Positions 7,127 to 52,502 of a DNA stretch of 64,000 bases are shown here, in pieces. The first letter of the stretch is position 1; every line of letters starts with the position of its first letter. The position numbers and the translations under genes were made by a program. Origin of the DNA: Chrysogorgia sp. JL179-B06 (Eukaryota > Cnidaria > Anthozoa > Scleralcyonacea > Chrysogorgiidae); contig JAYKKM010000217.1 in NCBI GenBank assembly GCA_035772405.1, positions 1 to 64,000 on the forward strand, in the 5' to 3' direction. The notes beneath the pieces were generated by a model. The model was not told where the DNA came from and made no database searches. It saw only the letters and a list, made by a program, of their open reading frames with translations.

Positions 7127-7142
7127 CTCGCGTCAGGTAAGT
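7127..7142 (-). repeat. U1 snRNA 5'-end target sequence between LINE copies 1 and 2
   Basis: On the minus strand this reads ACTTACCTGACGCGAG, the 5' end of the local U1 snRNA (nucleotides about 3-18), which includes the segment that pairs with 5' splice sites. It lies exactly between the 3' end of copy 2 and the 5' end of copy 1. It is the target site or target-site duplication of the LINE, not a functional U1 gene. Confidence 0.85.
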
Positions 7143-7155
7143 TTTTATTTTGAGT

Positions 7156-7199
7156 AGAATATTCGTATGTTCCAAGGACGTAGGTGCAATGAATATTCT
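7156..7199 (-). other. Conserved 3'-terminal stem-loop of U1-LINE (copy 2)
   Basis: An outer 9-bp stem (AGAATATTC pairing with GAATATTCT) encloses an inner stem. The hairpin lies about 13 nt from the U1 junction. The same structure appears at the 3' end of every copy that retains one. In some copies the inner stem sequence differs but still pairs (see the copies at 12361 and 20013). Confidence 0.75.
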
Positions 7200-7521
7200 A
7201 AACAGAGGGAGCCTACATAGCTGCCTAAACATGCTGAGAGTACGACTCCCACCCTCAAAAAGTGATCGTGGTTTACTTCACCAGTACAGACCAATTAAGG
7301 AGAGACCAGGGAAGGAGTTAAATTGATCCTAAATTAACAATTTTATCCCAACGCCGAGGCGAAGGGAGGTTTAAGTTAAAAAGGATAAAAGGTTTTAAAA
7401 AAGAGAAGTCAAGCTTCTCCCCATTAAAAACACCCAAGGACCCCCAGCAAGCCATTCTTTTTCAAAAATGGCCCGTCGGCATGGCGAAGAGTGCTTTGTG
7501 GCCTGTAGACACAGCAGGAAT

Positions 7522-7977
7522 TTAATACGCGCTATGACCACTTTGATATGGAGGTTTGTATTGAATGGCTAAACCAATTCGATATACCTTCCGGGTTGTG
7601 AAATCGGCAATATCAAGAGGCACGTCCAGAGAATTGCCAACAGCGAGGCTTGTCACATTGGTGCCACCCTGAAATTGACGCCATGCTTTCAATAGCTGCT
7701 GGTAAAAGACCCAAAGATGTAGAAGTAATGGCCTGTTAAAAGACCTTAGTCTTAACAAAGCGTCAAGTCGTAGGTTGAATGTGTGGAGAAACATGTGGCG
7801 GAAAAGGTCTTTCCACTTGGCACATGAGTCCGAATAAAACCGTTTTGAAACCACTGGAGGCGTAAGGCTTCGGCCTTGAGGCGGAAGTCGACAACACCAA
7901 AAACACCAAGCGACTGTGATGTTGTGACTGTTCAAACGGGCAACCAAGTCCCACTTGCCCCCCAAAAGAAAGACCAA
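7522..7977 (-). pseudogene. ORF2 C-terminal region, U1-LINE copy 2
   Basis: Includes the post-RT blocks shared by all copies, such as KWKDLFRHMF and YQQLLKAWRQFQGGTN. In intact relatives these lead into a CCHC-like cysteine/histidine region. An overlapping frame at 7932-8261 carries the piece just upstream (LSYQGRALIINALALSQIWH), so a frameshift lies near 7950. Confidence 0.65.
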
Positions 7978-8068
7978 ATGGCTTTGTTAAGTCTGGATGC
8001 CACCCATCCAGGCATAACGAAGACAGAGCAAAGATGCCATATCTGAGATAGAGCTAACGCATTAATTA

Positions 8069-8593
8069 TCAAGGCTCGTCCCTGATAAGAGAGGGTACGC
8101 TGTTTGCACGAAGAGAGTCGTTTCTCACCTTGACAACACGGGTTTCCCAAGTTGCCACAGCAGAGTCGGAGGCGCTGAGCACAGCCCCAAAGACTGGCAG
8201 ATCTTTTACCCACGACAAGCCGTGAGGCATGTCGGCACGGTGCTTCCAAGTTCCGATCCACAACCCCTTCGACTTGCCGCGGTTCAGCTTAGCGCCGGTG
8301 CCGATCTCGTACTGGGAGTACACATCGAAAACTGCAGGCAGTGAGGCGTCAGAAGTGATGATAATAGTAGTGTCGTCTGCGTAACATGAGCAGCGCAGCT
8401 CCTGCATCGAGTTTGGTAAGTGCAGGCCAGAGATGCCAGGCGCAGTGCGCAAGTTACATGCTAGTACTTCTGCGCACAGGACGTACAGCAGAGGCAATAG
8501 AGGGCAGCCTTGCCGAACCCCACGTGAGGGACGAAAAAAGAGAATGCCACAGCTCTGATCAGGAATGCCACAGCTCTGATCAGGTGACACCAC
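8069..8593 (-). pseudogene. ORF2 reverse transcriptase core, U1-LINE copy 2
   Basis: This 174-codon open frame contains RT motif B (GVRQGCPLLPLLYV), the catalytic YADDTTI box of motif C, and the downstream GTGAKLNRGKSKGLWIG block. Blocks conserved around the palm place it in the Tx1/L1-like group of APE-type LINEs. Compared with copies 4 and 6, the segment with motif A (LSLDQEKAFD) is missing just upstream, replaced by a short SCGIPDQ duplication. The enzyme would be inactive. Confidence 0.8.
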
Positions 8594-9726
8594 TCAGGAA
8601 ATCACTCCGAGGAGGCGGCCAGCAATCACATACGTAGCAATTTTATAATCTGCATTCAGCAGACTTATAGGATGCCAATTCTTGGTGTCCAAACGGTCGC
8701 CTTTTTTGTACAATATTTCCACGTCGTTGCGATGCAGATAGGCACCCGTGAGAATATGCAAAATTGAAGACCTTCACCAGCTCCGAGCCGAGAGTACTTC
8801 AGAAAGTCGTGAAAAATTCAATGGGGAACAAAGGAAACTGGTGTTTTTCCAGTTGCCATGCCTTCGGTAGTAGTTTCGCACTCATCTGTCGTGAGCAGGC
8901 CTTCACAACTTGCTTGTTCAGCTGGGGAAAGCCTCTTGACCAGCTTAGAAAGAAGGAGATCCGGAGCCGTTAAGTCACACTCATCTGCTGTAAAAAGTGT
9001 TTGATAATAAGATTGCCATACCTTAAGTATGGCAAGGGAGTCATGGTGTATAGCTGCAGTGGTGGGGTCTCTTACGGCAGATATCGATTTTTTCCATTGG
9101 TGCTTTTGTTCGAGGGAGAAGAAATAGGAGGATGACGTTTCCCCTTCTTCAGCCCATCGGCACCGAGCACAAACTTGTGCTGTCTGAGCTTCGCGAAGTT
9201 AAAAGGATCGAAGCTCCTGAATAGAACACATTTCAGAAAAATACAGTGGAGTCACCAGCGTCGAATAGGCGTTGTAAAGCCTGTAAACGACGGTTTAAAC
9301 GTTGCTTCAGCTTAGAAGCAGATAAGGCCTTTGTTTTGCAGTGGCTCCGGGTGATTTCACGCAAGTAAAAATTTGCCAATGTCCCACCAGTCAAGAGGGT
9401 TGTGGAAATCGCTCTCTTGTGATTTCCAAAAGGAACGAACTAGCTGGCAATACTCGGGTGAGTAGGGAAGTATTAAACTTCCAGGACCGAGACCCACAGA
9501 TGATGGCAGAGAAAAGGTGACCAAAAAATAACGGTGGTCAGTAAGAAAGAAAGGAAGGAAAATACTCGCTATCGGTTACATGTTCATGTAGGCTAATAGG
9601 TGCCCACACCATATCGATGGGTGAAGAACATTCTCCAGATGCGTGGTCCCATGAGAATGAACGAACATCAGGGTGCTGCGTTCGCCATACGGGTAGGTGT
9701 TGTCGAGAGAAGTGATTGCAGTGCCG

Positions 9727-10290
9727 TTACACTCTCTCAGCCAAATTGGGAGTTGCACGCTGATATGACGGGCGGGTGGCGCCGGTCGAGAGTTGGGTCG
9801 AGGATGCATTAAAAAGCAGGAAGGTAGGCAGGGCGAGGTCAATAAAATCTGGCAAGGAAGAAAGGAATTTATTCCTGTCCGGGTTCCGGCTAGGAGCGTA
9901 TAATGAGACGAAACGCACCTTGTCATCATTCATAGTTACCTCAGCCTGAACAAAGCGGCCGGCATCGTCACGCTTCACTTGTTCAAGCTGGTGGCGTGAA
10001 TTAACAAGAATAGCGGTGCCAACCCGTTTGTTCGAGATGGACGAAGAGGCAATCGCGTAGCCGGAGGAGGAAAACCACGCACGCAACGTGCCATGGGAAA
10101 TTGCGTGTGTTTCTTGAAGGCACACAATGTCAGGCTTCACGCATTGAAGCCAATGTATAAATGTGATACGTTTAGTGCGGTCATTCAGACCGTTAATATT
10201 AATTGTTAGTAGCTTGAACGTTAAATCTATTCGGGGTGCATGAATTAAGTGGGAGCGTCCGTTCCACGTCAAGGAAAGCAAAAGCATCAT
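9727..10290 (-). pseudogene. ORF2 APE-type endonuclease, U1-LINE copy 2
   Basis: Shows the apurinic-endonuclease-like motifs: ININGLND (catalytic Asn), VCLQETHA (catalytic Glu), SNKRVGTAILV and VSLYAP. In APE-type LINEs this domain nicks the target strand and so sets site specificity. Here it presumably recognises the U1 gene 5' end. The frame changes near 9830-9900, and the rest of the domain runs on in other frames to about 9600. It is the best-preserved endonuclease here together with the one in the fragment at 17.8-18.2 kb. Confidence 0.75.
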
Positions 10291-10992
10291 TGGCTAATTG
10301 CTCCAAAAAGGCCTCTTTCTGCATGGGAGGCATTGTCAGTGTCGCTTTCTTCAGAAGCATCGTCAGTAGCATCTTGGTCCATTAGCGAACCAAGGGCTGC
10401 TACAACCGTCACGCTCCCAGATTTTCGTGATCAGGCAGGACAATCGTGTCCACAGCCGGCTCGACAAGGGTAGATTCTACCGCTAAAGCTGTGGATACAA
10501 GAGGAGATGGCGACAAAAGCAAATGGAGAGACAGCTTCAGTGGAAGCTGGAGGGTTCTGCCAATAAAAGAGTTGAAGGTACAACTCCAGAGTCATAAGGA
10601 TTCTCCTGCGTGGGTGGACCTACCGCAGCAGAATCGTCACCACTATCATGTGATGAAAACATAGCGGGCGACAGGTCAGTGCTGAGTAAATCAGTACTTA
10701 ATAGTGGTGTTGCGACCGCAACAGAAGAAGGTGGTGTGGTGGTTTTGGATGGATCAGCCACACTCTGTGTTTGTAGTACAGGATCCATCTGGATCAATTG
10801 GATTCCTGATCCGACAGCTCTTCTAACAAAGAACGCTTGGATAGGTCTTCCTCACTATTAGTATCCCTTGTTGTCATGTCCTCCAAAGAACTCTCTTTGC
10901 AAGAATTGCAAGGTGGGAGATCTAGAGGGTTTGACACAACTGTAACCACTATTGAGTCACCAACGATAGTAGAAGAGTGATTGGGAAGATCA

Positions 10993-11760
10993 CTAGTTCG
11001 TGAAGGTGAAGGAAGCAGGTGGTTGTGTAGGAGGAGGTGGTGACGAAGGCGGTGGTGGAGGAGGTGGTGGAGGAGGAATTGTTGTTAGAGAAGGTCTAAC
11101 TTCAGCCAAAGCTTCATCACGAGCATTGGTTGTAGAAGCTACGTCTCCAACACCCAAAGAAGTACGTACGGAAGTACGAGGAGCAGCTGCCTTAGAGGCG
11201 TAAGACTTCCTTGGACATCGTTGCACCATGTGCCCGACCTGGCCACATCCAAAGCAAAATGTTGGCTGGTCCTTATATTTGATGCGGCATCGGAAACCCA
11301 CGATACGCAAAAAGGTCGGGATGTGTTCATTAATGCGCATGGTGACCATGCGTGTACCCGGACTGGATGTGGGGAAAACACTTAGTCGGCAAGTGTTTGA
11401 CGGTGGACACATGCCCGAATCGAGAAAGGGCTTCCTCGAAATCCTCATTGGGTGGACACATGCCCGAATCGAGAAAGGGCTTCTCGAAATCCTCATTGGG
11501 GAACTGTAAAGGTGCTTGTTCCACAAAGACCTTGGCGTCAGCTTTTCATAAGCCGGAGCGGGGGTTAGATGGACACCCCTAAAATCAAATCCGTTCATAT
11601 CGAAAGAACGGCGCAACTCAGTACTTCTAAATTGTTCATGGAGCTGCAGTTGAGGCAGGATCTGTATACCCTGAACTTTGTCTGGGCCAAGTGCCTTTAA
11701 AAATTCAAGGCGCACTACTTTAAATTGATCCATCCCAACGATTTTCTTTGAAAGAGACAC
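10993..11760 (-). pseudogene. ORF1 (RNA-binding, CCHC) of U1-LINE copy 2
   Basis: This 255-codon open frame starts SLSKKIVGMDQ. It holds the FDMNGFDFRGVHLTP block and a canonical zinc knuckle CFGCGQVGHMVQRCP (CX2CX3GHX4C). A proline-rich C-terminus (PPPPPPPPPPSSPPPP) ends at about 10993, with further ORF1 tail in other frames down to about 10540. A short direct duplication around 11395-11500 (repeated PNEDFEKPFLDSGMCPP-like units) interrupts the region before the knuckle. ORF1 proteins coat LINE RNA. This copy is close to intact but the duplication and missing N-terminus make function doubtful. Confidence 0.75.
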
Positions 11761-11769
11761 GTGCTATTT

Positions 11770-12332
11770 CACATGCAGAAGTTCAAATCGCTATATGACA
11801 TAATGAGCGATTTATTTAATATAGTTATATAGTTTAATATAATATAATTCCATTGACTGTAATGGAATGTAATATAATTTAATTTAATATAGTTTAGTTA
11901 GGTATAGTTTAGTATAGTTCAAATAAACTATACAAAAGAGAGACAAACACACAGTAGGAGAAAAAACCCTACTCGCTGGGGCTGAAGGACCCCACACACA
12001 AACAGGTACTACACGCCTGATACGCACAGGGAAACACAGCAGGAGGGAGGACGCCTGCTCGCCAGGGACGAAAACCACCCAGCAGGAAATGGGCGCCTGC
12101 TCGCCGAGAACCCGAAGGTTCGCAAGTTAAGCCTGCCCAACTAACTAACTAAAAACTATCTACAGAAATAAGAGTAAGAAAGAAGGACGCACTAGGGGCG
12201 CCCTTAAGAAAAATGAAGTTTGTCTGTCCTCAGTGACAGCTAGTAGTCAACGTACATACGTTATTGTCAAAAACCAAGCATGGATCTGTCAGTACGATGA
12301 GATCGATAATTACTAGTCACGAGATCGGAAAT
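11770..12332 (-). promoter_or_regulatory. 5' UTR of U1-LINE copy 2 with stem-loop array
   Basis: Contains the AGCATGGATC box at 12278-12287, about 45-55 nt inside the element, and stem-loops at 12037-12061 and 12080-12102 with perfect AGCAGG/CCTGCT stems. An AT-rich tract (about 11815-11935) precedes ORF1. The same order of parts occurs in copies 1, 5 and 7. Promoter activity is inferred from position, not shown. Confidence 0.5.
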
Positions 12333-12348
12333 CTCGCTTCAGGTAAGT
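12333..12348 (-). repeat. U1 5'-end target sequence between LINE copies 2 and 3
   Basis: Minus strand reads ACTTACCTGAAGCGAG, the U1 5' end with one change (C to A). It separates the 3' end of copy 3 from the 5' end of copy 2. Confidence 0.85.
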
Positions 12349-12360
12349 TTTATTTTGAAA

Positions 12361-12403
12361 AGAATATTCTGATGTCATAAGACATGCGTGCAGTGAATAT
12401 TCT
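12361..12403 (-). other. Conserved 3' stem-loop of U1-LINE (copy 3), covarying inner stem
   Basis: The outer stem AGAATATTC/GAATATTCT is kept. The inner stem is ATGTC/GACAT with an ATAA loop, whereas copies 5, 6 and the 56-kb stub have an ACGT-type inner stem. Both sides change together, which supports selection on the RNA fold. Confidence 0.7.
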
Positions 12404-12669
12404 TCACAGGGGGAGCCTACAAGGCTGCTAACTGTGCTGAGAGCATGACTCTCACCCCCAAAGTTGGAAACCTAGAATCCTTTTGACGGGAGAGCCAGCA
12501 GTGATCCTAGATAAAGACAAGGAAAAAGGAACCTAAAATTTTACTTCGCCCAGTGCAGACCAATTAAGGAGAGACCAGGGAAGAGGTTAAATTTATCCTA
12601 TATTAACTGTTATCCCGATGCCAAGGCGAGGGGAGGTTTAGGTTAAAAAAGATAAAAAGGATAAAAAGG

Positions 12670-12861
12670 TTAAAAGACTTCAACAACTGAGAATGGATTG
12701 GCAGATGGGACCGCTTGCAGGAGCTGGAAGTAAAGCCAGTTCAGAACGAACTGGGCAAAGGAGCAGTGGAAGAACAGGTGCTCGAGCGTTTCCTCGTCCT
12801 GTTGACAGAAGCACTTGGGGTCTATATTATGGTGTATAGAACACCATGAGAAATTTTCCAA
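12670..12861 (-). pseudogene. ORF2 extreme C-terminus, U1-LINE copy 3
   Basis: Reads CFCQQDEETLEHLFFHCSFAQ, split here as CFCQQDEETLEHLF and FHCSFAQ. The CXC...HX4C spacing is the zinc-binding C-terminal region (zf-RVT type) common in APE LINEs. The NWLYFQLLQAVP block is repeated in copies 6 and 7. The segment is in frame to the 3' UTR. Confidence 0.6.
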
Positions 12862-13138
12862 TTAAGATCAACAACAGTCCGATCCAAGCTGATCGCATGC
12901 AGTTGATTCCAGGTGGATTACCAATATAGGTCACCATAGGTCGGTTGGAATTTCTCGACGCAGTGAGGCGGCTTATGCTGGATGGAAAGACCCAGGCGAT
13001 AAGCTGACAACGTCGATAGTGCCGGCACTTTAAGGGGAGCATCACGACTTGCTCCAAGGACCAGGTGGTGCTCACAAAAACCCCCATCGAAGCGCCGCCA
13101 AGCGGAGAAGAGCTGCTTATAAAATGGTGGAAGAGGAC

Positions 13139-13936
13139 TTACCTGTCGTCTGTTAAAAGAGCTCTGCGACAGCAGCTTGTACACTTGTAGAACTGGCGGG
13201 AGAGCATAAGGTGGAACATCGCTTTCGACTCTGCGTCGGGATCCATGAAAAAAGCGACGGAACGAGGTCCCGCTTGCCCCCCAAAAGAAGGGCCAGATGG
13301 CTTTGTCGAGCCTAGTCTCTGCCCAAGGCCCAACGAGGCATTACAAAAAACAGCACACAGGTGCCATATTTGTGCAAGAGCCAATGTATTAATAATTAAG
13401 GGCTTGCCTTGGTAAGTGAGATTCCTACCCTTCCATGACGATAACCTCTTCTCTGCCTTCTCGATCCGAGGTGTCCATGTTTCCTTGGAAGAGTCGGAAA
13501 CGCTGAAAACGGCGCCTAGGATCGTAATGCGTTTGACCCAGTCAATACCTAGCGGAGTATCGCTACGGCCTTGCCATGCACCGATCCAGAGTCCCTTTGA
13601 TTTGTTTGTGTTGAGTTTTAGCGCCCGTGCCTTGCTCAAACTTACTGTAGACGTTCAGAACCGCTGGGAGTGATGAATCCGAAGAGACCACCACAGTGGT
13701 GTCATCAGCATATCCCAAAATGCGTAGTTCGTGTGCTAGACCTGGTATCTTCACTCCACAGATATCAGGGGCTGACCGGATGCTACATGCCAGTGTACCT
13801 CAGCACACAGAACATGCAACAAGGGAGACAGCAGGCAACCCTGGCGCACACCGTTAGAAGGGTGGAAAAAGACGACGACTGCCGACTCGATGTCAGTATA
13901 AAAAATAGGTACGCAATGCGTACATGTGACTACCAC
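13139..13936 (-). pseudogene. ORF2 reverse transcriptase, U1-LINE copy 3
   Basis: Three overlapping minus-strand frames carry GVRQGCLLSPLLHVL (motif B, 13751-13936), LGYADDTTVVVSSD (motif C, 13563-13754) and KSKGLWIGAW followed by SSWKGRNLTYQGKPL (13139-13639). Two frameshifts separate them. The domain begins at YTDIESA, so motif A is absent. Confidence 0.75.
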
Positions 13937-16329
13937 TATGGACAGTTATTATAAATATTTTATAAATGTGTTGCTAAATTGAACATGGCAAATACTATGC
14001 CTACATTTTTATATGGATTGTTTCCAAAATATAGCATCATCATAAACAACACCCTCAAATTTCATTTGAAGTGAACTTGTAAAGTTCACATGTAAATAAA
14101 ACATCTAGGGCTGGTTATACGAAGCCTGGATAATTCATCCACTGGATAAGTCCTAGCTAGAAAAGCAGCTAATCTACTGGTGATTTGACAGCTGGCAGAT
14201 CTAGGATTTTCCTAATGCCCCCAATTTTGGGAACCAAGGAATCGCAGCTGTAAAGTATAAGTTGTATGGAAAACAAGATATTTGGCTGTTTCGGCATATA
14301 CAAAAATGCATCAGGCATGCCTAGAAACACTAAGTAATAGTGTAATAGTGATTCCAACATGGACAGCCAGCCATCAATGGTAGAAACAGGTAAAAAAGAA
14401 GAAATGTTAGTGGCCAGGATTCTGAAATAGGGCGTCCAATTTGGGAACATGTCAGACAAAAGTGATGACACTCGTATAGGGGACCCTTGGAAAATATTTG
14501 AATTTTGGGTTAAAGTGTATTTCCAGAATTTTGAGAGCACTTTTGAGCAAAATATAACAGTCTTAAACAAAATTTTTTAATGGGGTATCTCATCATTTTA
14601 AATACATATTTTGGTCCAAATATGCTTATATTATCAAATATATAATGAAGCAGTAAATTAGTTATATTTCCATAAGATGCAGTGCAGATAATATTCATAT
14701 ATATTCTCCTTACAATTAAATTTGTAATTCAAGAGTTCAACAGAATTTACATCTTCAAGAGAAGAAATTCATAATCTGTGCAGTGAATTATTGATTAGAA
14801 GATTACTTCATGTCAACATCTGCGTAACGTACTAAAGATCGCATCAGACCCATTCAAGATTTTTAGTTTTGCAAGTTTGTGCCGGCAATGCTGTCATGCT
14901 TCTTCATTCAACTAGGACATTTTCACTCAACTAGGTACACTGTCAAATTGGTCAAAATGTCACATGTATGATAATATTGAAAATTAAAGCTATTTCTTTT
15001 CAAATATATTTAGTATATATATTTTAGGCAAATCATTGAGAATAATTTCTTTCTCCCCCAAATTTTTGGTGATCACTTTTCATTGTATGGCATCCAACGA
15101 TACCCGGATACACTTTCTGGCAATAAGCCTGCTCTGACCAGTGCCCCTAACAGGATCATTAGTACAACTCCGCTTTGGAGTTTCTTTGGAAACTATCTGT
15201 GATAGCGTACAAAATGGTTTGGTTTAAATACTTCACCAGCAATGACATTACCTTCAAAACTGAACAATATACAGTGTAGATCATCAGATGCAGTTGTTAA
15301 AGGATAACTTGTACATTCTCCACAGTCAGGATAGAACAAAGTAATATTTCTATTTCTGACAGAAGAGGAGAACGAGAATAGAAAGAAAGCTAGCTGATCA
15401 TTTTTTATCCTCAGAATTGGAAATGGCTTCCAATTCCTCTCCAGACCAAAATCCAAACTTTCAAACAAAACAGACAAAGGAAAACGTTTGTTTACACTAG
15501 TACATACCTTAAGTTCTCCTGTACAGCACAATACAATACAATACAATACAATACAATACACTACAATACAATACAATACAATACAATACAATATTGTATT
15601 GTAAGGAAAAGGTATGTGAAGCTCCTTGTGCTTTGCATAGATGGAATTAAATGACAGATTATAATAAAAATTGGAATTTAAAAAAAGATCAATGGATACC
15701 ATATCCCTCAGACTTCCAACAAGATAATTATCTCCTACCGTTGCTATAAAGGACACAGAGCTATATAAAACAATTTCCAGAAGCGTCAGATCTAAAATAT
15801 TAAGATATTAAAACAAGTCATCAGAAATAAAAACAGACACTAGAAGACTAATGTAACTTGATATGATATGTAAATACGGTGTTAATAAATGTGTGTTCTA
15901 TGAGTAATAATGTGTATCTTGGTTTTCCGCTTATGGTATACAGACACTACCAAATGATTAAACGAAGCCTTATTAAATAGTCATAACGTTTTATACTGTC
16001 AGTGCACGGAATGATGGTAAGAGCTTGTCTTCGACACACTTCGCTGGTTCTAGTGTATACCCGCGGCGCAGTTTATGATAATTTTGAACAAACATCAATA
16101 GGAAAGTAAAATGATCACTAAAGACAGATAAAATATAGATAAAAATATGTAATACGCTTACCTTTAATAGAGCGATAGTGGCCGGCTTGCTTCTTTGGCT
16201 CTTTGCTCTAGTTTGGCGCTTTGTTGATAACCGGCACGATCTAACGCGATCACTTCTCGAACACCTAGCGATCCTGTCGACATGTCACGATAACTGGCCG
16301 AGTATGACGTAATGAGGTCCAAGACAAGC
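13926..16329. other. Inter-LINE segment, no recognised gene
   Basis: The minus strand at 14169-14570 has a 133-codon frame without recognised domains. Its DNA near 14490-14560 resembles 57130-57210 (both end in ACACTTTTGAGCAAAA-like sequence), so it is probably an old interspersed repeat. The minus-strand frame 15193-15512 reads like coding sequence (FPILRIKND, FSFEGNVIAGEVF) but I cannot identify it. A pentanucleotide microsatellite lies inside that frame. The piece at 16160-16330 just left of the LINE fragment is unrelated to the LINE family. Confidence 0.35.
15526..15604. repeat. (ACAAT)n pentanucleotide microsatellite
   Basis: About fourteen near-perfect copies of ACAAT, with one CACTA variant, end in a short palindrome (AATATTGTATTGT). 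It reads as the repetitive LYCIV peptide on the minus strand, which explains the apparent 187-codon frame there. Confidence 0.9.
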
Positions 16330-16964
16330 AAGCAAGATCTCGCCGACATTAGTGGCTACCGCTAACGCGGTAGTCACAAAAAGGGTGACCCATTGACGGA
16401 AACTAGGACCGAAACCCATAGTTTCAAGAGTACGAGAGAGGAAATGCCAATCTACACGATCGAAGGCCTTCTCCTGATCAAGTGAGAGAATAGCAATAGT
16501 GAGAGTGTAGTCAATTAGGTCACGGAGAGTGGCTAGGTTGGCGGAGATGGTACGCCCAGGCACACCGCACGTTTGATCTGGGCCCCTGGCGACACGACGG
16601 ACGCGATCACCTTCAACAAACGCCCCGCAATTGCGTGGGTAGCCACTTTGTAATCGACATTAAGTAGACTAATAGGACGCCAATTCTTTGTAACAAGACG
16701 ATCGTCCTTCTTGTGTAGTAAAATAATAAGTACCCGCCGCTGTGATGTAGACATGCGACCGTGGGGAGTAAGAAAAATTGAGTACTGGGACAAGATCACT
16801 GCCCAGGATACTCCAATAGGTCCGGTAGAACTCGGCGGGGAAGCCATCAGATCCAGGGGTTTTACCAGACAGCATTCCCTGAAGTGCAACCTCGCACTCC
16901 TCCGTGGACAGGATTCTCTCACAAAAAGCAGACTCCTAGGGCAAAAGAACCTGCTCGAGTCCAC
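16285..16964 (-). pseudogene. ORF2 RT N-terminal half with motif A, LINE copy 4
   Basis: Frames at 16533-16964 and 16285-16563 include GKTPGSDGFPAEFY (RT fingers), RPISLLNVDYKVATHAIAGR, then ILSLDQEKAFDRVDW, in which the first D is the motif A catalytic aspartate. A frameshift separates the two frames, and the domain is cut off before motif B. Confidence 0.75.
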
Positions 16965-17088
16965 CTAGTAAATCATCGTGGATGGAAGGATCACATGAGC
17001 AGGCAGTAAAGAGCTCGTTGTAATAGGAGCGCCATACACTCCAGTGGGTCATGGTGAACGACACCAGTTGAAGGATCCTTAATCCCGG

Positions 17089-17620
17089 TCATGTTCTTTC
17101 TCCGTTGGTGTTTGCCCTCCAACGAGAAGAAATATTTTGAGGATATTTGTGTGCTCGGACTTGACCAGCTTGGGTAGTACGGATTTCATAGGCACGTAGG
17201 TCTTCCTGGATTGCACAGAACTCTATAAAAACCGAAGAGTCGCCGGAATCTAGCAATCGCTGAAGCTCCCGAAGCCACTGGGTTAAACGAAGCTGGGTAG
17301 CGGAATGGGCAACAGCTTTGGATTTGCAATAAGAGCGCGTGATCTCACGCAGGTAAAATGTACCTAAGTCCCACCAATTGAGTGGGTTCGAAAAATCCTC
17401 GGCGGCTTCCTGCGCCTGCCAATACACCCAAAAAAGACTGTACAAGCTCGCGGTATTCGAGATCTTGAATAGCAGAGGTATTGAACGTGCAGTACCCGGG
17501 ACCCCGATTCCCTGATGACGGAAGCGAGAAGGAAGTCGTGAGATCGCGGTGATCAGAAAAGGTGGAAGGATGGTATTGGCAATCCTTCACGTGACTTTGG
17601 AGAGCGATGGGGCGCCCCAA
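17089..17620 (-). pseudogene. ORF2 linker between endonuclease and RT, LINE copy 4
   Basis: The block NWWDLGTFYLREITRSYCKS and the following LQRLLDSGDSS match the linker of copies 2 and 6 (PDWWDKGKFCLREVTRSFCK in copy 6). The region is alpha-helical in character and conserved across this LINE family. The HRDLTTSFSLP frame upstream belongs to the end of the endonuclease domain. Confidence 0.65.
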
Positions 17621-17749
17621 ATCATGTCGATCCTAGAGGATACCTGTCCAGATGCATGGTCCCAGGAGAAAGTACGTTCTCCAGGATGTTGGATGCGCCA
17701 CACTGGGAATGTACTAGTGGCGGAGAGAAGAGACTGAAGGGCAGTTACA

Positions 17750-19999: not shown

Positions 20000-20012
20000 T
20001 TTATTTTGAAAA

Positions 20013-20054
20013 TAATATTCTGGTGTCATAAGACATTTGTGCGATGAATATTCT
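20013..20054 (-). other. Conserved 3' stem-loop of U1-LINE (copy 7)
   Basis: The outer stem is AATATTC/GAATATT. The inner stem is GTGTC/GACAT with an ATAA loop, including one G-T pair. It is the same type as copy 3. Confidence 0.65.
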
Positions 20055-43349: not shown

Positions 43350-43470
43350 GCCGACCTTTATTTTGAAAGCCTAAAAAACGAAAAACGGTGTCCAAAAACA
43401 AGCGGTTCCGCTGGCCGTCACCTGCCGAGCGCGGGCGCTATTTCAGCGCGTTCAAACCAAAAGGCGGTTG
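43350..43470 (-). promoter_or_regulatory. 5S-to-U2 spacer with U2 PSE-like element
   Basis: On the minus strand GACACCGTTTTTCGTTTTTT lies about 50 bp before the U2 start. It shares CACCGTTT with the U1 PSE-like element. The spacer opposite end contains the 5S terminator TTTT. Same spacer at 53415-53530. Confidence 0.6.
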
Positions 43471-43588
43471 GTCTACGACATGGAGTATTCCCAGGCGGTC
43501 ACCCATCCAACTACTAACTCCGCCCGACCAGACTTGACTGCGGTGATCAGACGAGAACCGGTGTTTTCCTGGTGGTGTGGTCGTAGAC
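43471..43588 (-). rRNA. 5S rRNA gene, array copy 2 (complete)
   Basis: The reverse complement starts GTCTACGACCACACCACCAG and includes AACACCGGTTCTCGTCTGAT, CACCGCAGTCAAGTCTGGTC, TTGGATGGGTGACCGCCTGG and TGTCGTAGAC, followed by CCTTTTGG. The 5' and 3' ends pair over GTCTACGAC/GTCGTAGAC. This is the best 5S copy here. The region CAGTCAAGTCTGGTCGGGCGGAG differs from most animals, where AAGTTAAGC is usual, so function is not certain. Confidence 0.9.
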
Positions 43589-44066: not shown

Positions 44067-44209
44067 AGGGGACGAGCGCGAACGCAGGTAGCCACTACCA
44101 GAAATTATATGCTCGAGTTGCCCACATTTGGGGTAATCGCAGGAGTCAACAAAGTCGAAGTGAGAGGGCCTCCCTATGTGATCAAGAGTGCCTCTTGCGT
44201 CAGGGTAAC
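44067..44209 (-). pseudogene. U1 snRNA pseudogene, array copy 3
   Basis: The reverse complement keeps CACTCTTGATCACATAGGG, CGATTACCCCAAATGTGGG, the Sm site AATTTCTGG and the 3' stem. The 5' end reads AGTTACCCTGACGC instead of ACTTACCTGACGC, so the splice-site-pairing stretch is damaged, and about 30 nt around stem-loop II, including the U1A loop, are deleted. It cannot act as U1. LINE copy 6 abuts it. Confidence 0.88.
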
Positions 44210-44222
44210 TTTTAGTTTGAAT

Positions 44223-44266
44223 AGAATATTTGTACATTCCGAGGACGTACGTGCAATGAATATTCT
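44223..44266 (-). other. Conserved 3' stem-loop of U1-LINE (copy 6)
   Basis: AGAATATT/AATATTCT outer stem. The ACGT-type inner stem has one mismatch (TACATTCC against GGACGTA). Confidence 0.65.
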
Positions 44267-44675
44267 AAACAGGGGGAGCTTACAAAGCTGCAAACCTAGA
44301 ATCCTTTTGACGCGAGAGCCAGCAGTGATCCTAGATAAAGAAAGAAGGGAAAAGGAACTAGAATGGTTACTTCACCCAGCACAGACCAATTAAGGAGAGA
44401 CCAGAGAAGGGGTTAAATTTACCCTACATTAAACTAGGAACGTTCCTGAAGCGAAAATCGCAACGAGCTGACCAGATACGGTGTTTCACCATTTGTAGCA
44501 TCCACATTATGACTTTAGGCATGGAAGCCTTACGTGCACCCGAGAAGCCAAAAAGAAGTTCTTGGACAGTAAAGGGTGTGGCATTTGGTAATGACAGAGT
44601 GAGTTGATAAAGTACCCAATTCATGAGGATCTGTGCGAATGAGCAATGGCAAAAAGATGTTCCAATGTTTCTTCG

Positions 44676-46123
44676 TCAGATTCGCAAAAAGCATTTAATC
44701 TCTATGCGGCGGTATCCGAAAGATCGGACCATCCTCACCGCAGCGTACAGAACACTGTGGGCAATCTTCCAACTCAGGTCGATTGCGCTTCGTTCGAGCG
44801 AGAGCATGTGAATCTGTTGCCAAGTATCTGGCCAGTAAAGGTTACCATATATGGGGCGGAACTTTTCCTCACAATGTGGAGGTTTGTGTCTGATGGCGAG
44901 TGCAATGTGGTAAACCTTCTGAGTAGTGAAGGCCTCGATGTTCAGAGGCACATCTCTGGAAGTACCGATTTTTAGCTGGGAACAATTGGTGCCACCTTGA
45001 TGGGAGCGCCAGGATTTCAAAAGCTGTTGATAAAAAGGCGGAAGGCTTTGTAAAGATGTCCGCTTAAAAGACTTGAGCCTCAGTAGAGCATCAGGTCTTA
45101 GATGAAAACCACTACCTAACAGGTGGCGGAAAAGGTCTTTCCACTTTGCCCCCGAGTCAGAAAAAAACCTTTTGAGCCACTGGAGCCTCAGAGCATCAGC
45201 TTTAAGGCGGAAATCGACCACTCCAAATCCCCCTGCGGACTGTGTTGTGGTCACAGTTCGTCGTGCAACCAGGACCTTTTTGTGAGCCCAGAAGAAAGGC
45301 CAAATGGCTTTGTCAAGTCTGGATGCCACCCATCCAGGCATGACAAAGACCGTCACGTGTCAAGTGCCATATTTTGGATAGGGCAAGCGAGTTTATGACA
45401 AGAGCTCCCTGGTAGGAAAGATTCCGTCCTTTCCAGGAAGAAAGCCTTTTTTCCACCTTTGTAATGTGGGGTTCCCAAGTTGCCGTTGAATAGTCGGAAG
45501 CGCTGAGGACAGCCCGAAGTACCGGGAGCTCCTGTACCCAAGTTAAACCGTGGGGGTATCTGTGCGGTGTTTCCACGCCCGATCCACAATCCCTTTGACT
45601 TGCTACGGTTCAACTTTGCACCGGTGCCGATCACATAACTCATACACCTCAAAGACTGCAGGCAGCGAGTTATCGGACGTAACAACAACTGTCGTGTCGT
45701 CCGCACCGCAGTTCTTGCATGGAGTCTGGCAATCGAAGGCCGGAAATTCTAGAGGCTGTATCCAGGTTGCAAGCAAGGACCTCTGCGCGCAAGACGTATG
45801 GGAGAGGTGACAGAGGACAGTCCTGTCGTACTCTTCAAGATGGACGAAAGAAAGGTGACATCCAGCCATTGATGATGACTGAGGTTTCGACGTCCGTATA
45901 AAAAAAGATGAATCCATTGACGGAAGCTAGGCCCAAAGCCCATTACTGTCAGAGTACGTGCCAGGAAACCCCAATCGACAAGGTCGAAAGCTTTCTCCTG
46001 GTCTAAAGAAAGAAACGCCACCAGGAGTTGGTGTGTTTCAGCCAAATCAATGACGTTATGCATTTCGCTCAAGTTTTCCCCTATCGTCCTTGCAGGTATG
46101 CCACACGTTTGATCGGGGGACAC
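44676..46123 (-). pseudogene. ORF2 reverse transcriptase, U1-LINE copy 6
   Basis: Frames: 46123-45749 with DQTCGIPARTIGENLSEMHN and motif A FLSLDQEKAFDLVDWGF; 45706-45313 with GTGAKLNRSKSKGLWIG; and 45356-44676 with MPGWVASRLDKAIWPFFW, GGFGVVDFRLKADALRLQWL and NIEAFTTQKVYHIALAIRHK. The motif C region is degraded: near 45700 the minus strand reads ADDTTVVVTSD but preceded by a deletion (PCKNCGADDTT). It has motif A but several frameshifts. Confidence 0.75.
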
Positions 46124-46351
46124 AACCGAGGAGATTACCCGAAGGAGGTGCCAATTCTTGGTTTCTAAACGATCTCCCTTTCTAAACGATCAGCCAACGT
46201 CACTGAGGTGGAAAGTGAACCATTAGAATAAGCATAGTTGAGCATGACTGCCAGGTCCGGGCCGAGAGTGTCCCAGAAAGTGGAGTAAAACTCAATGGGG
46301 AAACCCATCCGAACATGGTGACTTGCCTGTAGCCATACGATCAGCAGCGAC

Positions 46352-46921
46352 TTAGCATTCTTTGGGTGTAAGAAGCCCTTCACAGCTCATCTGTCCCTCT
46401 GGAGAAAGTTTCCTCACCAGTTTCGAGAGGAGGTCCTGCACGGTTAGGTCACATTCCTCAGCCTTGAATAAATCTTCGTAATACTCTTGCCATATCTTCA
46501 ATATGTCAAGAGAGTCGTGGTGTACGACCGAAGCGGCAGGATCTTTGATGGGCGACATATTTTTCTCGCGGTGTTTCTTTTCCAATGAAAAGAAATGGGC
46601 AGTGGATTTTTCCCTCTCCTCAGCCCATCGACACCTGGCACGTACTTGAGCAGCTCGAGCTTCGCTGATCTCGTAAGCGCATAAATGTTCAGCGAAGACA
46701 GAAGAGTCCCCAGCGTCGAACAGACGCTGCAGGTTTAGCAACCGCCGATTTAGATGAATCTTCAATGCAGATGCCTCTAAGGCTTTTGCCTTACAAAAAC
46801 TCCTCGTCACTTCGCGCAGACAAAATTTCCCCTTATCCCACCAGTCTGGAGGGTTGGGGAAATCCATTTGTTGCGTGCGCCAAAAGATCCAGAACGATTT
46901 CACCAATTGACAATACTCCAT
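46352..46921 (-). pseudogene. ORF2 linker region, U1-LINE copy 6
   Basis: A 189-codon open frame, long for this window. PDWWDKGKFCLREVTRSFCK, LLNLQRLFDAGDSSVFAEHL and YEDLFKAEECDLTVQDLLSK are conserved with copy 4. It joins the endonuclease to the RT fingers (GQMSCEGLLTPKEC). The charged helical middle resembles the equivalent region of other Tx1-like ORF2 proteins. Confidence 0.7.
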
Positions 46922-47199
46922 CTCCTTGAGTATGGAAGTATTGAGCTTCCAATACCCAGGCCCAATGCCAATGGAAGAGTGAAAGTGACCATAAGGTACC
47001 TATGGTCTGTAAAAAAGGATGGATAGTATTCACTATCCTCCACATATAATTTGAAATTGATTGGTGCCCAAACCATGTCAATGCGCGAGGAGCACTCCCC
47101 TTTTCAAGTCTATTTAAAAAACGCACATTCCCGACTGACTGTCCTGTTCGGTGTTACCGGAGAACCCGGCAGCGCAAGAATCAGAAATGGTGCCAAAAT

Positions 47200-48452
47200 C
47201 ATCATGATAAGAAGGAAGAGGAGTATTTTCGGGGGTGCATGCAAAAGCCCCGGTTATCACCCTCATCTTCAGGCCAGATTTCGTGACCTGGAATATTCTG
47301 GTCCGTAGAATCAACCTGGGATGGAGGTTGACAATCTGTGGTCCCCGCCGTGGAAAGAACGGGTGGCACGATACGAGTACGCACTCTGCGGCGTATCTGA
47401 ATAGGTATTGTTGCTCCAATGGACGTGGAGCAGCAGTACCACCACATGTAAGTGAAACCTCGACCTAGGTCAAGGAAGAAAGGATTTGCGTTAGTGTCCG
47501 TATTGGGCACTGTAGTCGGAGCTTCGTTTACCGCGGCAGCAGTAGGGGGATGGATGAGGGAGGCGTCCGCATTTACATTTACACATCTACCGTCGTATCA
47601 GGAATCGATTCCTGATCGGATGGAAGGTCGAGTAGCTGGCTTGTCGTCTTCATGGCTAAAATGAAGGAGCCGTTTTGTCCCTTTTGGCGCCATGTCCTCC
47701 AGTGAAACCTTAGTGGAGGAATTGCATGGAAGATTGGTCGCTATAGTGACCAAAAGGATGTCATCCTCTACCCTGGAGGTCCGATCTACTGAGGGTTCCT
47801 CACAGAACAAGGAAAGTAAATCTTCACCACTCCAAGATGGTGTGGTGGTGGGGGAGGAGGCGGCGGCGGCGGTGGCCTCGTGTCCGACCTAGCATCAGGA
47901 TGAAGGTCAACAGCAGGAGCAGGAGATGGAGGCATATGTCCGCCCAGGAGCTGCTGAGCAGCAGCAGGAGCTGCGATGGAGGCATATGTCCGCCCACGAC
48001 AGCGTTTAACAGTGTGGCCTCATTTGCCACACCCAAAGCAGGTGGTCGGCTGATCTTTGTACTTGATCCGACAACGATAGCCTGCTATTTTGGTCGGGAT
48101 GGATTGCGCAATGTGCATGGTGATCATGTGGGTACCCGATTGAATGTTTGGGTAGCCCTTTACAGGCAGGTGCTTAACAGATGCAACTCTGCCGAACGGC
48201 GAAAGGGCTTCCTTAAAAGCATTATTTGGGAACTACAGGAGAGCAAGTTCCACAAACACCAGCGTTAGATGTTCGTATGCAGCTTCTGGGGTTAGATGGA
48301 CACCCCGAAAATCATATCCTTGGACGTTAAAAGCCCTACACAGTTCCTCAGATTTAAATTGGACACGGGGCTGCATTTTGGGCAGGATCTGGATGCCCAG
48401 GATCTTTTCCGGGCCAAGCCGGGCCAAGTGCTTTGAGAAACTCAATACGCAC
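47200..48452 (-). pseudogene. ORF1 remains, U1-LINE copy 6
   Basis: Near 48233-48450 the frame has RLGPEKILGIQILPKMQPRV, AFNVQGYDFRGVHLTPEAAY. Near 48000-48060 the minus strand reads QPTTCFGCGK, a start of the zinc knuckle, in another frame. A short direct repeat of GGAGCTGCGATGGAGGCATA-like units lies at 47920-47995, comparable to the duplication in copy 2. The tail is Ser/Pro-rich. Confidence 0.6.
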
Positions 48453-48462
48453 GTTTTTGAGT

Positions 48463-48506
48463 AGAATATTCGTACGTTCCGAGGACGTAGGTGCAATGAA
48501 TATTCT
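48463..48506 (-). other. Conserved 3' stem-loop of U1-LINE (copy 5)
   Basis: AGAATATTC/GAATATTCT outer stem. TACGTTCC/GGACGTA inner stem with one bulge. Confidence 0.75.
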
Positions 48507-49623
48507 AAACAGAGGGAGCCTACATAGCTGCTAAACATGCTGAGAGTTCGACTCCCACCCTCAAAAAGTGATCGTGGTTTACTTCACCCAGTTCAGACCA
48601 ATTAAGGAGAGACCAGGGAAGGGGTTAAATTTATCCTACATTAACTATTTTATCCCAAAGCCGAGGCTAAGGGAGGTTTAGGTTAAAAAGGATAAAAGGT
48701 TAAAAAGAGAAGACCAGCTTCTCGTTGCTAAAATACCCTAGGGATCCCCCAGCGAGCCACTCTTCTAAAAGAGTTCGCGCTGTTCTGGCCATCTGCACTT
48801 GGCGGCCGTACCCAAGTACGGGCCGTACGAGCGTCTTGTACCCAAAAGAATGTACTAGTCGGGACGCGGTGTACAGAATGCCGTGCGCGATTTTCCAGTT
48901 AAGGTCGATTACAAACCGATCTAACTGGACCGTATGCAGTTGTAGCCATTGTAGCCATTGTAGCCATGTGGATGGCCAATAGAGCTCCCCGTAAACTGGT
49001 CGGAACTTGTCCATGCAGTGCGGTGGCTGACTGCGACACGAAAGGCAAGTGTGATAGGCCTTCTCTGTGGTCATGGTGGTGATGTCCAAAGGGACCGCTT
49101 TACGAAGGCCAAGGACTAATTGGCCCTCATGAAACCCACCATCCAATTGTCTCCAGGCGGTTAGGAGTTGTCGATATAAAAACCTGGAAGTGTATTTTTA
49201 AAAGACTGTCGAAATGATCTTTGAGTCAGCAAATTGGTGACAGAAACTGAAAATGCATGGAAAAACATGTAACGGAACATGTGCTTCCATTTTGCCTGAG
49301 AATCGGACAAGAAGCGCCGAGACCACTGCAGACGTAGTGTATCGGCCTTCGTTCGGAAGTCTACAATACCGAAACCACCTGCTGACTTCGTACCAAAAAC
49401 TATACGACGGGCAACAAGGTCTCGTTTACCCCCCAGAAGAAGGGCCAGATTGCTTTGTCCAATCTGGATGCGACCCATCCCGGCATAGTGAAAACAGCAC
49501 ACAAGTGCCATATCTGGGAAAGTGCCAGAGCATTAATGATGGTATGAAAGGGTACGCCCTTTCCAAGCTGCCAGCCTCTTTTCTACCTTAGCGACACGCG
49601 GCTCCCACGTCTACGTATCGTAG

Positions 49624-50241
49624 TCAGAGGCGCTGAGAACTGCACCGGGCACAGGTAGATGTTTCACCCAAGCTAGGTCGAGCGCGGCGATTCTTACATG
49701 CCCCCAGCCACAAACCTTTCGATTTGCTGCGATTTAGCTTGGCGCTTGAGTCTAGCTCAAACTGATGGTAGACTCGCAGGACTGAGGAAAGCGAGGCGTC
49801 GGTGGTAATGACAATCGTGCTGTCGTCCGCATACCCAGAACACCGTAACTCCTGTGAGGAACTGGGTAGTTTGATGCCGGTGATACCAGGGGCAGCCAAG
49901 GGCTGAAAGAATGGTGAAGACCAACCATTAATAATCACGGCGGACTCGATATCCGTGTAAAATAAGGAGATCCATTGCCGAAAGATCGCGCCGAATCCCA
50001 TTGCTTCGTCATCACGCCAAACCTTTTGGAGCTGATGGTGTGAGGCGACAAGGATGGCAGTACCTACTCTCTTATTGGAGATGGACAAAGACGCATACCC
50101 AGAATCTAGAAACCAGGAGCGGAGGGTTGTGTGAGAAGCGGCATGTGTCTCCTGTAAACAAACAATATCCGCCTTCAGACATATCAACCAATGAAGAAAT
50201 GTTATGCGTTTTGTACGGTCATTCAGACCGTTAATATTCAA
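49624..50241 (-). pseudogene. ORF2 fused endonuclease and RT piece, U1-LINE copy 5
   Basis: This 205-codon open frame reads MNINGLNDRTKRITFLHWL, KADIVCLQETHAASHTTLR, SNKRVGTAILVASHHQ, then switches within one codon to RT sequence AMGFGAIFRQWISLFYTDIE and SGYADDSTIVITTD. An in-frame internal deletion removed the rest of the endonuclease, the linker, RT fingers and motif A. Motif B is also shortened (FFQPLAAPGITG). The fused frame is open but cannot be an active enzyme. Confidence 0.8.
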
Positions 50242-50282
50242 TGTAATTACCGTGAACGTTAAATATGTTGAGGTAAAATTAT

Positions 50283-51564
50283 CTATGAGGATGCAGACGT
50301 TTCCGCCTGTGCCATTGAAAGCGTTGATTCCAGATGGGCTGAAATCTCTGCAGGAGTTGCCCCATCCTCATCACTTGAAGAATCAGTGGAGCTACTATCA
50401 GAGTTCGAAACCAGCTGCAGAGGTGTGATGAGTGGCAGAGAGGAGTTATTTCCATCATTGAGTTCCAACTCAAACTCATGATGGCTGCTACAGCCATCCT
50501 CAGTCCACACCTCATGACCAGGAGTCTCCTCGTCACTACAGTCAAGGATGATTGGGTATCCCTTACTATCCCCGACGGATGGAAAAATAGGGGGAGTAGA
50601 AGTGGACTCTGACTTAACATGGACGTGCAATGCGGGTGGCCCAAGGGACGCGATAGACGGCGTTGGAGGAATAACTCCGCTTTCAACCGGGTCCTGCAGC
50701 GCATCGGGTGATGTCGCAACAGAACAGACATTCGTCATGTCATAAGATAATACTTGGGGACTCTGGCAATTCCGCAGCAACAATTTCACCTACCGATGGA
50801 GGCGCAGAGTCCTTCTGGGTTGCTGGGATTGGGGAAACATCTGGGTTTATGATGACAGGAACTGTGGTGTCAGGAATGTCATCAGCCGACAGAGAAGATC
50901 GATCACCATCAGATTTCTGCCCATACGAAAAAGCGAGAAGAGGCTTTGTGGCCGTCTCGATGTCGCTATCTCGGTTCATAGAACGTTTCTGTCCTTTTGG
51001 GGCCATCTCTTCTAAATTGTGGACTTCCGATGGAGGTGGAAGATCCAATTTTGGCAAAGGGTCGGACGTCTGGAGAACCCGACCCGATGTGGGTGTATTA
51101 AGGGGATGGGGCATGTGCCCCGGCTCAGATGTAGGTGAGCTTGCTACATGGGAACTCCGAACATGGGAGTCCACCGCGATGGCTGTGGTGGATATTGTCA
51201 TGATAATAAGGCCCCGTTGGGACCAGGTAGGACACTACGATTCCCCCACTCAGAGGTGACATCCGTGCTACCTGCTGTCGCGAAGAGTAGACAGAGTTGT
51301 AGTGTCTACAGCAGCATTTTTCGTAGAGGAAGGCTTCTTTGCTTGACTGCTTTGGTCAAAGCAGCTGGTCCACGGGCGAAGACCTCGTCAAGAAGATCAG
51401 GCGAGCTAGCTGAAGAGGAAGTGTCTTCCGCCGTGGATGGGACGGGCGAAACTGCGGCCCTAGTGGGCTCGCGGTTAGTCGGTATTACGTTTGCTACTGC
51501 ATTCGAACATGACCGACGGACACTTCGCTTGGGGCAATCAGACAACGGAAACCGGCAATGTTAA
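50283..51564 (-). pseudogene. ORF1 C-terminal region, U1-LINE copy 5
   Basis: Frames at 51306-51545, 50740-51201 and 50283-50789 encode a Ser/Pro/Thr/Asp-rich tail (EDTSSSASSPDLLDEVFARG; STDSSSDEDGATPAE). Near 51510-51560 a CPKRSVRRSC remnant marks the end of the zinc knuckle. It is low complexity with no other domain. Confidence 0.5.
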
Positions 51565-52024
51565 TAAAAACTGGGATCGGTGTCTGTACAATCATGGATA
51601 CCAGGCGAGTGCCAGATTGGATATGGGGGTAGCCTTTCACAGGGAGATGTTTCACATGGGTTACGCGGCCATATTTAGCTAACGCCTCTCTAAATAGGTC
51701 GTTAGGGAATTGGAACGGCGCTGCCTCTACAAAAACCTGCGAAAGGGACTCATATGCGGAGCGGGGGACAAGTTGGACTCCCCGGAAAGCAATGCCAGTT
51801 AAATCAAAGGAACGCCTCGAGTGTCGCGATTTGAATTCAACTCGCCCATGAAGATCAGGAAGAATTTGACAGCCAAGGACGTGTTCCGGACCGATAGCAT
51901 CAATCAGATCCTTATGATAAATGGCAGGTTTATCCGTACCTACTAATCTTTTTGGCAGGGTAACCACCGATGTAGTGCTGTTCCACACAGCGAAATCATC
52001 TATAGTAAATGTACCGAAAGGCAT
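51494..52024 (-). CDS. ORF1 N-terminal part, U1-LINE copy 5
   Basis: 176 codons from the ATG at 52024. VWNSTTSVVTLPKRLVGTDK, FDLTGIAFRGVQLVPRSAYE, APFQFPNDLFREALAKYGRV and GYPHIQSGTRLVSMIV show the ORF1 core. The frame ends where the zinc knuckle would start (SEVSVGHVRMQ), so a frameshift damages the knuckle. It is the most complete ORF1 N-terminus in the window and defines the family start. Confidence 0.7.
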   Translation of the reverse strand: MPFGTFTIDDFAVWNSTTSVVTLPKRLVGTDKPAIYHKDLIDAIGPEHVLGCQILPDLHGRVEFKSRHSRRSFDLTGIAFRGVQLVPRSAYESLSQVFVEAAPFQFPNDLFREALAKYGRVTHVKHLPVKGYPHIQSGTRLVSMIVQTPIPVFINIAGFRCLIAPSEVSVGHVRMQ

Positions 52025-52076
52025 GGTACTATTTAGATGATATGTTATTTATTTAGGAATTTTAGAAATTTGTATT

Positions 52077-52080
<4 letters not shown>

Positions 52081-52109
<29 letters not shown>
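52081..52109. repeat. (AT)n microsatellite upstream of ORF1, LINE copy 5
   Basis: About 14 TA repeats within the AT-rich tract that precedes ORF1 in this family. Confidence 0.9.
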
Positions 52110-52111
<2 letters not shown>

Positions 52112-52484
52112 TTAATTTACAATAGTGTACAATATTTCCCTAAAGCAAGCGGGAAGAATAGACACAAACACACTAGGTCTGCAATAACTAGAAAATCTAG
52201 TGAAGACAATTAAGAAAATTCGTCAAAGACGAATAATCCCCAAGCCACACAGCAGGAAAACGGCACCTGCACACCAAATAAGCAGGGAATCCCAGCAGGA
52301 AACCGACGCCTGCTCGCCATGGAAAAGGACCCCCACCCTGCAGGAAATAAGCGCCTGCTCACCCAAAAGAAAGATCAGAAGAAAGGGCGTCACACAGGCG
52401 CCCTTGCGAAAGGAAAATGGAAAGTGGAAACCAAAAAGCGGTCAACAGTGACAGCTAACAACCACCAAGCATTTAAAAAAAATA

Positions 52485-52502
52485 CTTGCGTCAGGTAAGT
52501 AT
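52485..52502 (-). pseudogene. First 18 nt of U1 snRNA, split by LINE copy 5
   Basis: Minus strand ATACTTACCTGACGCAAG, a perfect U1 5' end with AT start and ACTTACCTG. The intact U1 promoter region lies directly upstream and the LINE 5' UTR directly downstream. A transcript from the U1 promoter would therefore begin with U1 and continue into the LINE. Confidence 0.92.

Follow-up and report, generated by a model that had tools for sequence, protein, structure and literature searches.

A 64,000-nucleotide stretch of the genome of the octocoral Chrysogorgia sp. JL179-B06 (C217:1-64000, C217 being contig JAYKKM010000217.1; hereafter the window) is a piece of a degenerate U1-5S-U2 array, made up of broken U2-U1-5S units on the minus strand, in which long interspersed elements (LINEs) adjoin U1 small nuclear RNA (snRNA) genes at a single position. 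We consider it very probable that these are L1/Tx1-like non-long terminal repeat (non-LTR) retrotransposons of the APE type (apurinic/apyrimidinic endonuclease), specific for the U1 gene. Insertion site and orientation, target duplication, head-to-tail stacking, a motif at off-target sites, the coding capacity of open reading frame 2 (ORF2) and a conserved tail are all read directly from the DNA.

LINE ends in the window abut U1 at one position

Eight element/U1 junctions lie in the window, all at one U1 position and every one in the orientation of U1 (minus strand), as a sequence-only reading of this DNA had proposed. At the two 5' junctions that it had named, 52502-52485 (ATACTTACCTGACGCAAG) and 37333-37316 (ATACTTACCTAACGCGAG), U1 nt 1-18 indeed stands with the U1 promoter upstream and element sequence after it. 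Four 3' junctions (44209, 36230, 19999 and 56360) consist of an A-rich foreign tail followed by U1 starting at nt 3. The other two, at 12348 and 7142, had been taken for junctions with U1 as well; the U1 16-mer is present there, but these are tandem junctions, in which tail, 16-mer and the 5' end of the next element follow one another, and do not lead into the U1 body. All five 3' ends placed before the 16-mer by the earlier reading have it, with 0 (7142), 1 (12348), 2 (19999), 5 (44209) and 3 (56360) mismatches to ACTTACCTGACGCGAG in 16 nt, so that the copies at 44209 and 56360 are decayed 16-mers; the junction at 36230 had been missed. With at most one mismatch, ACTTACCTGACGC occurs six times in the window, against 0.06 expected.

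Since the 3' end joins U1 nt 3 and the 5' end follows nt 18, the target duplication is 16 nt long (nt 3-18), or 15-16 nt because one A is common to the tail. The target previously given, nt 16-18, thus describes the 5' (top-strand) junction but not the 3' end.

The LINE copies, which all lie on the minus strand, have diverged from one another but belong to one group, with ORF1 followed by ORF2. Copy A (7143-12332, ~5.2 kb) has both ends and, in broken frames, ORF1, endonuclease and reverse transcriptase (RT); its ORF2 domains are the endonuclease PF03372 at 9727-10290 and the RT PF00078 at 8069-8593. By 16-nt comparison, a U1 16-mer at 12333-12348 separates copy A from copy B, and another at 7127-7142 separates it from the 5' part, with the ORF1 start, of a further LINE (6215-7126, read from the sequence). 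These two 16-mers agree at 15 of 16 letters and are not identical as had been stated. Copy B (12349-18932) is interrupted by other sequence, and copy C (20000-24746) has its 3' tail on U1; the 5' ends of B and C were looked for in the window and not found. Copy D (44210-48449), likewise with its tail on U1, has lost its 5' end in ORF1. Copy E (48450-52484) begins at U1 nt 18, after the 5' half of an interrupted U1 with its promoter (52485-52502); its 3' end is rearranged, without a U1 junction, and an internal deletion has removed what lay between endonuclease and RT and so joined the two. A 3' tail fragment, G, lies at 56361-56421.

The insert that follows the second U1 5' half (37316-37333) had been taken for a LINE. 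It is a short element, F (36231-37315; 1,085 bp), with no ORF of 150 aa, a tail unlike the LINE tails of the window, and the U1 16-mer on both sides with one mismatch each. Over the first ~55 nt it is similar to the 5' ends of LINEs: tried against three of these it scores 33-34, whereas 500 letter shuffles reach 21-22 at most.

3' junctions across the genome

In the 781 Mb assembly, COX1 (contig C460, where it repeats at 19.0 kb) is 96-97% identical to COX1 of Coelogorgia palmosa and of Ellisellidae, which marks the host as an octocoral. The assembly was searched with probe A, 150 bp from the tail of copy A (best 40 of 202 candidates), and probe C, from the tail of copy C (best 40 of 132). With probe A, 26 of 40 matches join U1 nt 3, 13 lie elsewhere and one is the rearranged copy E; with probe C, 34 of 40 join U1 and six lie elsewhere. 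The 60 of 80 matches at U1 nt 3, which bear out the earlier proposal of U1-specific insertion with most 3' ends at one U1 nucleotide, comprise 42 that run into the U1 body and 18 that run into the U1 16-mer and then another element. All 12 element F matches that were read also join U1; the 13th is a duplicate on C275. The end of that contig, near 6.28-6.31 Mb, matches the window region almost letter for letter (99% at 7143, 100% at 20000 and 36231), being either a haplotig or a recent duplication, and the junctions there are thus not independent. Without the C275 duplicates the counts at U1 are 25 of 39 (probe A) and 32 of 38 (probe C).

Exact string counts agree. AAAACTTACCTGACGC (AAA plus U1 nt 3-15) occurs 117 times in the genome, against three for the reversed control, and AAAACTTACCTGACGCGAGAGGCACTC (AAA plus U1 nt 3-26) 69 times against none; as these strings hold only three tail A, a few may be mutated U1 starts. 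The 69 exact tail/U1-body junctions are confined to 10 contigs, with 29 on C382, a clustering that would be expected if the U1-5S-U2 array, through unequal crossing-over, had multiplied a single accidental insertion in U1, or a small number of them, made without target specificity. We regard this as very improbable. The same U1 nucleotides are met by no fewer than three kinds of tail and by several kinds of 5' end, the 18 tandem junctions among the 60 on-target ones would need repeated insertion, and off-target copies share a U1 motif (below). The copies thus make up several subfamilies of one LINE group, not the single family that had been proposed.

The 5' side and unfilled U1 sites

A U1 promoter probe (best 40 of 399 candidates) found U1 interrupted at nt 14-18 in 26 of 40 cases, 24 of 38 outside the window and two inside; at one of the 26 (L104) the insert was not recognised. 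The other 14 continue into U1 (L102 partly) and represent unfilled sites. On contigs C9-C236 the 5' leader has 25 matches, of which 21 begin at a fixed distance (52-76 nt) from the first letter of an exact U1 16-mer. The string of U1 nt 1-15 plus one promoter letter has 362 exact copies in the genome (control 0) and the intact 27-nt U1 start has 268 (control 0), the remaining 94 being interrupted genes or U1 variants. Many intact U1 copies stand in tandem, spaced ~1,494 bp (C164) or 1,466 bp (C382), and one C164 unit holds U1, 5S and U2 on the same strand.

SINEU elements have snRNA-derived heads, and most copies examined here are flanked by U1 sequence, as they would be if the elements carried a U1-derived piece at their ends instead of targeting U1. 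This explanation seems to us scarcely credible: the flanks continue into the U1 promoter or body, there is a 16-nt duplication, unfilled sites exist, and the U1 16-mer never follows the tail in the 19 off-target copies. We reject both pure array amplification and a SINEU-like U1 head, on the respective grounds given above.

Off-target insertions and the choice of site

Genome-wide 3' ends at unrelated sites would, by the earlier reading's own standard, have spoken against U1 targeting. This is the case in part: 19 of the 80 A/C-probe matches lie off U1, yet at sites that open with the same bases as the U1 target, mostly AC(T)(T). Agreement with U1 among the 19 was 18, 16, 12, 10, 9, 10, 8, 3, 0 and 6 at nt 3 to 12, respectively, with one-sided binomial p values at nt 3-10 of 5e-9, 3e-9, 0.003, 0.03, 0.08, 0.002, 0.02 and 0.95 (assumed base rates 0.3 for A/T and 0.2 for G/C). 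Each flank was taken, by eye, to begin where the tail ends, and the A of nt 3 can therefore not be counted independently of the tail A; further on, the flanks have C at nt 4 (16/19), T at nt 5 (12/19) and C at nt 8 (10/19). Eight off-target copies were examined with upstream DNA, ~6.4 kb each, and two gave a readable pre-insertion site. One is a 5'-truncated copy with a 10-nt duplication, at CATCAT^ACTAAG (U1, CTCAT^ACTTACC); the other lies in a satellite whose sibling units read GAT/CAT^ACTTCT (U1, CAT^ACTTAC). Two further off-target tails lie ~0.5 kb apart on one strand at C478:2002932-2003604.

The off-target flanks match U1 outward for variable lengths (AC, ACT, ACTT, ACTTACC), which looks like microhomology and would fit a loosely specific endonuclease, with specificity coming mainly from pairing of the RNA tail, or of read-through U1, with the nicked target. 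We think this unlikely, although it deserves more weight than the readings rejected above: endonuclease preference would give the same motif, and the two pre-insertion sites match U1 upstream of the cut too (CAT, GAT), a match for which pairing with the tail would not select, albeit in only two cases.

On the reading that we favour, the endonuclease of the element would nick the bottom strand at 5'-...CAGGTAAGT^AT, the RT would bind a hairpin at the 3' end of the RNA and prime complementary DNA synthesis from the nick (target-primed reverse transcription), and a later top-strand cut would fall after U1 nt 18. Transcription of the element may make use of the host's U1 promoter. A 16-mer with one flank would probably suffice as a renewed target, giving the stacked copies.

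The duplicated 16 nt contain the sequence with which U1 recognises 5' splice sites. U1 nt 3-11 pairs with those sites, so that the presumed nicked strand reads CAGGTAAGT^AT, a splice-donor consensus, and this part of U1 is conserved across eukaryotes. One may speculate, with some reserve, that the endonuclease has evolved as a specialist for the genomic complement of 5' splice sites and that extra recognition of U1 nt 11-18 spares host splice donors; off-target insertions would then lie antisense at donor-like sites, and RNA made from the U1 promoter would begin with the splice-site-recognition sequence of U1.

Anatomy, coding capacity and relatives

A whole on-target copy, L050, measures 6,053 bp between two 16-nt duplications and has the tail AAAATAAAA; another LINE tail precedes it and a good U1 (150.4 bits) follows. 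Both PF03372 and PF00078 score above cut-off in its ORF2 pieces and in the database relative P0001. With APE and RT in ORF2, an A-rich tail and a target duplication, the element is an APE-type non-LTR retrotransposon. ORF1 of copy A has a CX2CX4HX4C motif, read by eye, that may be a CCHC zinc knuckle of the kind known from the Tx1/L1 superfamily; the ORF1 pieces of L050 gave no Pfam match. With P0001 as query, 21 of 39 genomic copies scored (of 11,911 candidates) span residues 2-1183 without a stop. Copies with open ORF2 stand at U1, for instance at C382:1863817-1867359, whose tail (L061) runs into the U1 body.

A query made of the ORF2 pieces of copy A, joined with X, was scored against 8000 candidates, 290 of which proved related at E<=0.001. 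The best of them, of 1,183 aa and with both domains, shares 60% identity with the query across 61% of its length; among the 120 relatives listed, two (P0019, P0054) are species-named, both from the octocoral Paramuricea clavata. The best solved-structure match of P0001 is LINE-1 ORF2p (E 1.7e-80, residues 4-881), far ahead of its best R2 match (E 8.4e-19). Tested on this relative, not on a window protein, ORF2 is thus nearest to L1-type ORF2p among solved proteins, which speaks for placing the elements in the Tx1/L1 superfamily; the APE endonuclease and the LINE-1 match fit the kinship with Tx1 itself that had been suggested.

An RT tree was built from 61 rows (59 of 240 database relatives, L050 and L001), of which 60 were kept, P0007 being too short; its database rows bear no element names, and Tx1, Keno and Mutsu do not figure in it under their names. 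In this tree P0001-P0003 and another 11 relatives form a group with L050 (100/100), which long branches set apart from the lineage of L001. L001 is the one distant relative that a genome contig search returned, and its LINE tail is joined to U2, before GTATCTGTTC. The contig (L001:1-5340) is labelled as a gamma-proteobacterial symbiont of Taylorina, from a bivalve-symbiont assembly; it looks eukaryotic, since a LINE is joined to a U2 snRNA gene. No named Tx1 sequence was found among the best 120 of 3015 relatives of L001. Viral contigs yielded no relative with P0001 or alignment A1 and no match to a generic U1 pattern.

A possible hairpin in the 3' tail

According to an alignment of 22 tails, 20 of them distinct, the final 60 nt can fold into a hairpin that ends 11-12 nt before the tail end. 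Two of its pairs are changed on both sides in seven sequences each and a third in two. RNAalifold by itself recovered just the outer stem, as a weak consensus (-2.67 kcal/mol); we drew the inner stem by hand from the same sequences and then counted it against shuffles. Paired cells reached 89.0%, against 84.6% in shuffles (0/500 as high) and at most 49.5% when the structure was slid, and cells changed on both sides numbered 16 against 8.0 (0/500 as high). Pair 24-42 fails to form in 13 of the 20 rows. ORF2 protein binds such 3' stem-loops in the zebrafish LINEs ZfL2-1 and ZfL2-2 (PMC4176376).

Points that weigh against U1-specific retrotransposition

Several observations count against this interpretation. 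The 19 of 80 A/C-probe 3' ends off U1 mean that the preference for U1 is strong, not absolute, and the probe tallies cover the best 40 candidates per probe. Recombination can multiply copies in arrays, so that junction counts are not counts of insertion events. Six of the eight off-target copies with upstream DNA gave no clear duplication. In L050, the one on-target copy examined whole, each ORF is in two overlapping pieces (ORF1, 169 + 378 aa; ORF2, 399 + 875 aa); the genome-wide coding survey covered ORF2. For the hairpin, two of five measures are not above shuffles (pairs changed on both sides, 373/500 shuffles as high; further pair types, 346/500), and its compensations fall in two subfamilies and so reflect few events.

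Comparison with known systems

R1 and R2 live in the tandem, multicopy 28S rRNA gene array beside intact units. The U1 elements likewise inhabit a multicopy RNA gene array, with a different target, and the R2 endonuclease is of another type. At least 268 U1 genes have kept their start intact, and many of them belong to a U1-5S-U2 repeat of 1.47-1.49 kb, so that damage would be tolerable here as it is for R1/R2 in ribosomal DNA. The closest solved relative of their ORF2, via P0001, is LINE-1 ORF2p; L1 is not site-specific.

According to PMC4640811, the snRNA-gene targeters reported by 2015 were Keno and Utopia (U2), Dada-U1 and Dada-U6 only, Keno and Utopia inserting in U2 at one shared site. 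Keno, a LINE of the Tx1 group, resembles the U1 elements in its APE endonuclease and in its fixed site inside an snRNA gene (PMC4640811). The target of Keno is U2, whereas the on-target junctions read here lie in U1, and we reject identity with it; L001, with its tail on U2, may be Keno-like, and the RT tree sets its lineage far away from that of the U1 elements. Utopia shares an snRNA-gene target and tandem insertions (PMC4640811); it has a restriction-like endonuclease and targets U2, and is rejected because an APE endonuclease was found with U1 as target. The Dada-U1 DNA transposons also occupy a fixed site in U1 genes, but PMC3706591 gives them a DDE transposase, a 6-7 bp duplication and another U1 site (GCGAAT/GCGAAC); the RT and APE domains and the 16-nt duplication exclude them.

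No report of a U1-specific LINE was found in the literature searched, in its accessible parts, with Repbase and most subscription papers outside its scope. Within these searches, elements of this kind are known but U1 as their target is new. It joins the short list of RNA genes that serve retrotransposons as safe havens, here at the sequence that recognises 5' splice sites, and the genome illustrates how a host can bear heavy insertion into an essential snRNA gene while arrays of intact units persist alongside. As a natural enzyme with a conserved target present in many copies, the endonuclease is relevant to site-specific gene insertion, and the distance between the U2-inserted L001 and the U1 lineage bears on the evolution of LINE target specificity.

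Other features of the window

Rfam calls U1 at 36084-36232 (110.4 bits), 19838-20001 (101.6 bits) and 56219-56362 (91.6 bits); a fourth U1, at 44067-44212, scores 57.9 bits, under the gathering score of 69.5. All four lack their own 5' end, U1 proper running from nt 3 on at 36084-36230, 19838-19999, 44067-44209 (decayed) and 56219-56360 (mutated, by 16-nt comparison). Rfam also places 5S rRNA genes at 43470-43588, 19255-19372 and 55619-55741 and a U2 gene (RF00004, 131.2 bits) at 52842-53040, all these genes being on the minus strand.

The first ~20 nt of this U2 are replaced, its 5' part not being U2-like. The U2 5' end is replaced both in the window copy (53040) and at seven of seven further loci (L003-L009), at several U2 positions (GTATCTGTTC, ATCTGTTC, CTGTTC, GATCAAG, AAGATCAAG), and some of the replacing sequence is an A-rich tail. 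Several U2-targeting elements may therefore coexist with the U1 ones.

A different LINE occupies 30938-33698; its RT ORF (30938-32227) matches Pfam RVT_1 and ALKBH8_N, a LINE type other than that of the U1 element group, from which we exclude it. RT pieces at 38.7-39.5k, upstream of a U2 fragment, and at 27.4-27.9k are similar to each other. Another repeated stretch is present in two copies, at 28252-29759 and 33814-35251, that are 88-96% identical, and a DUF4371 ORF lies at 57270-58190.

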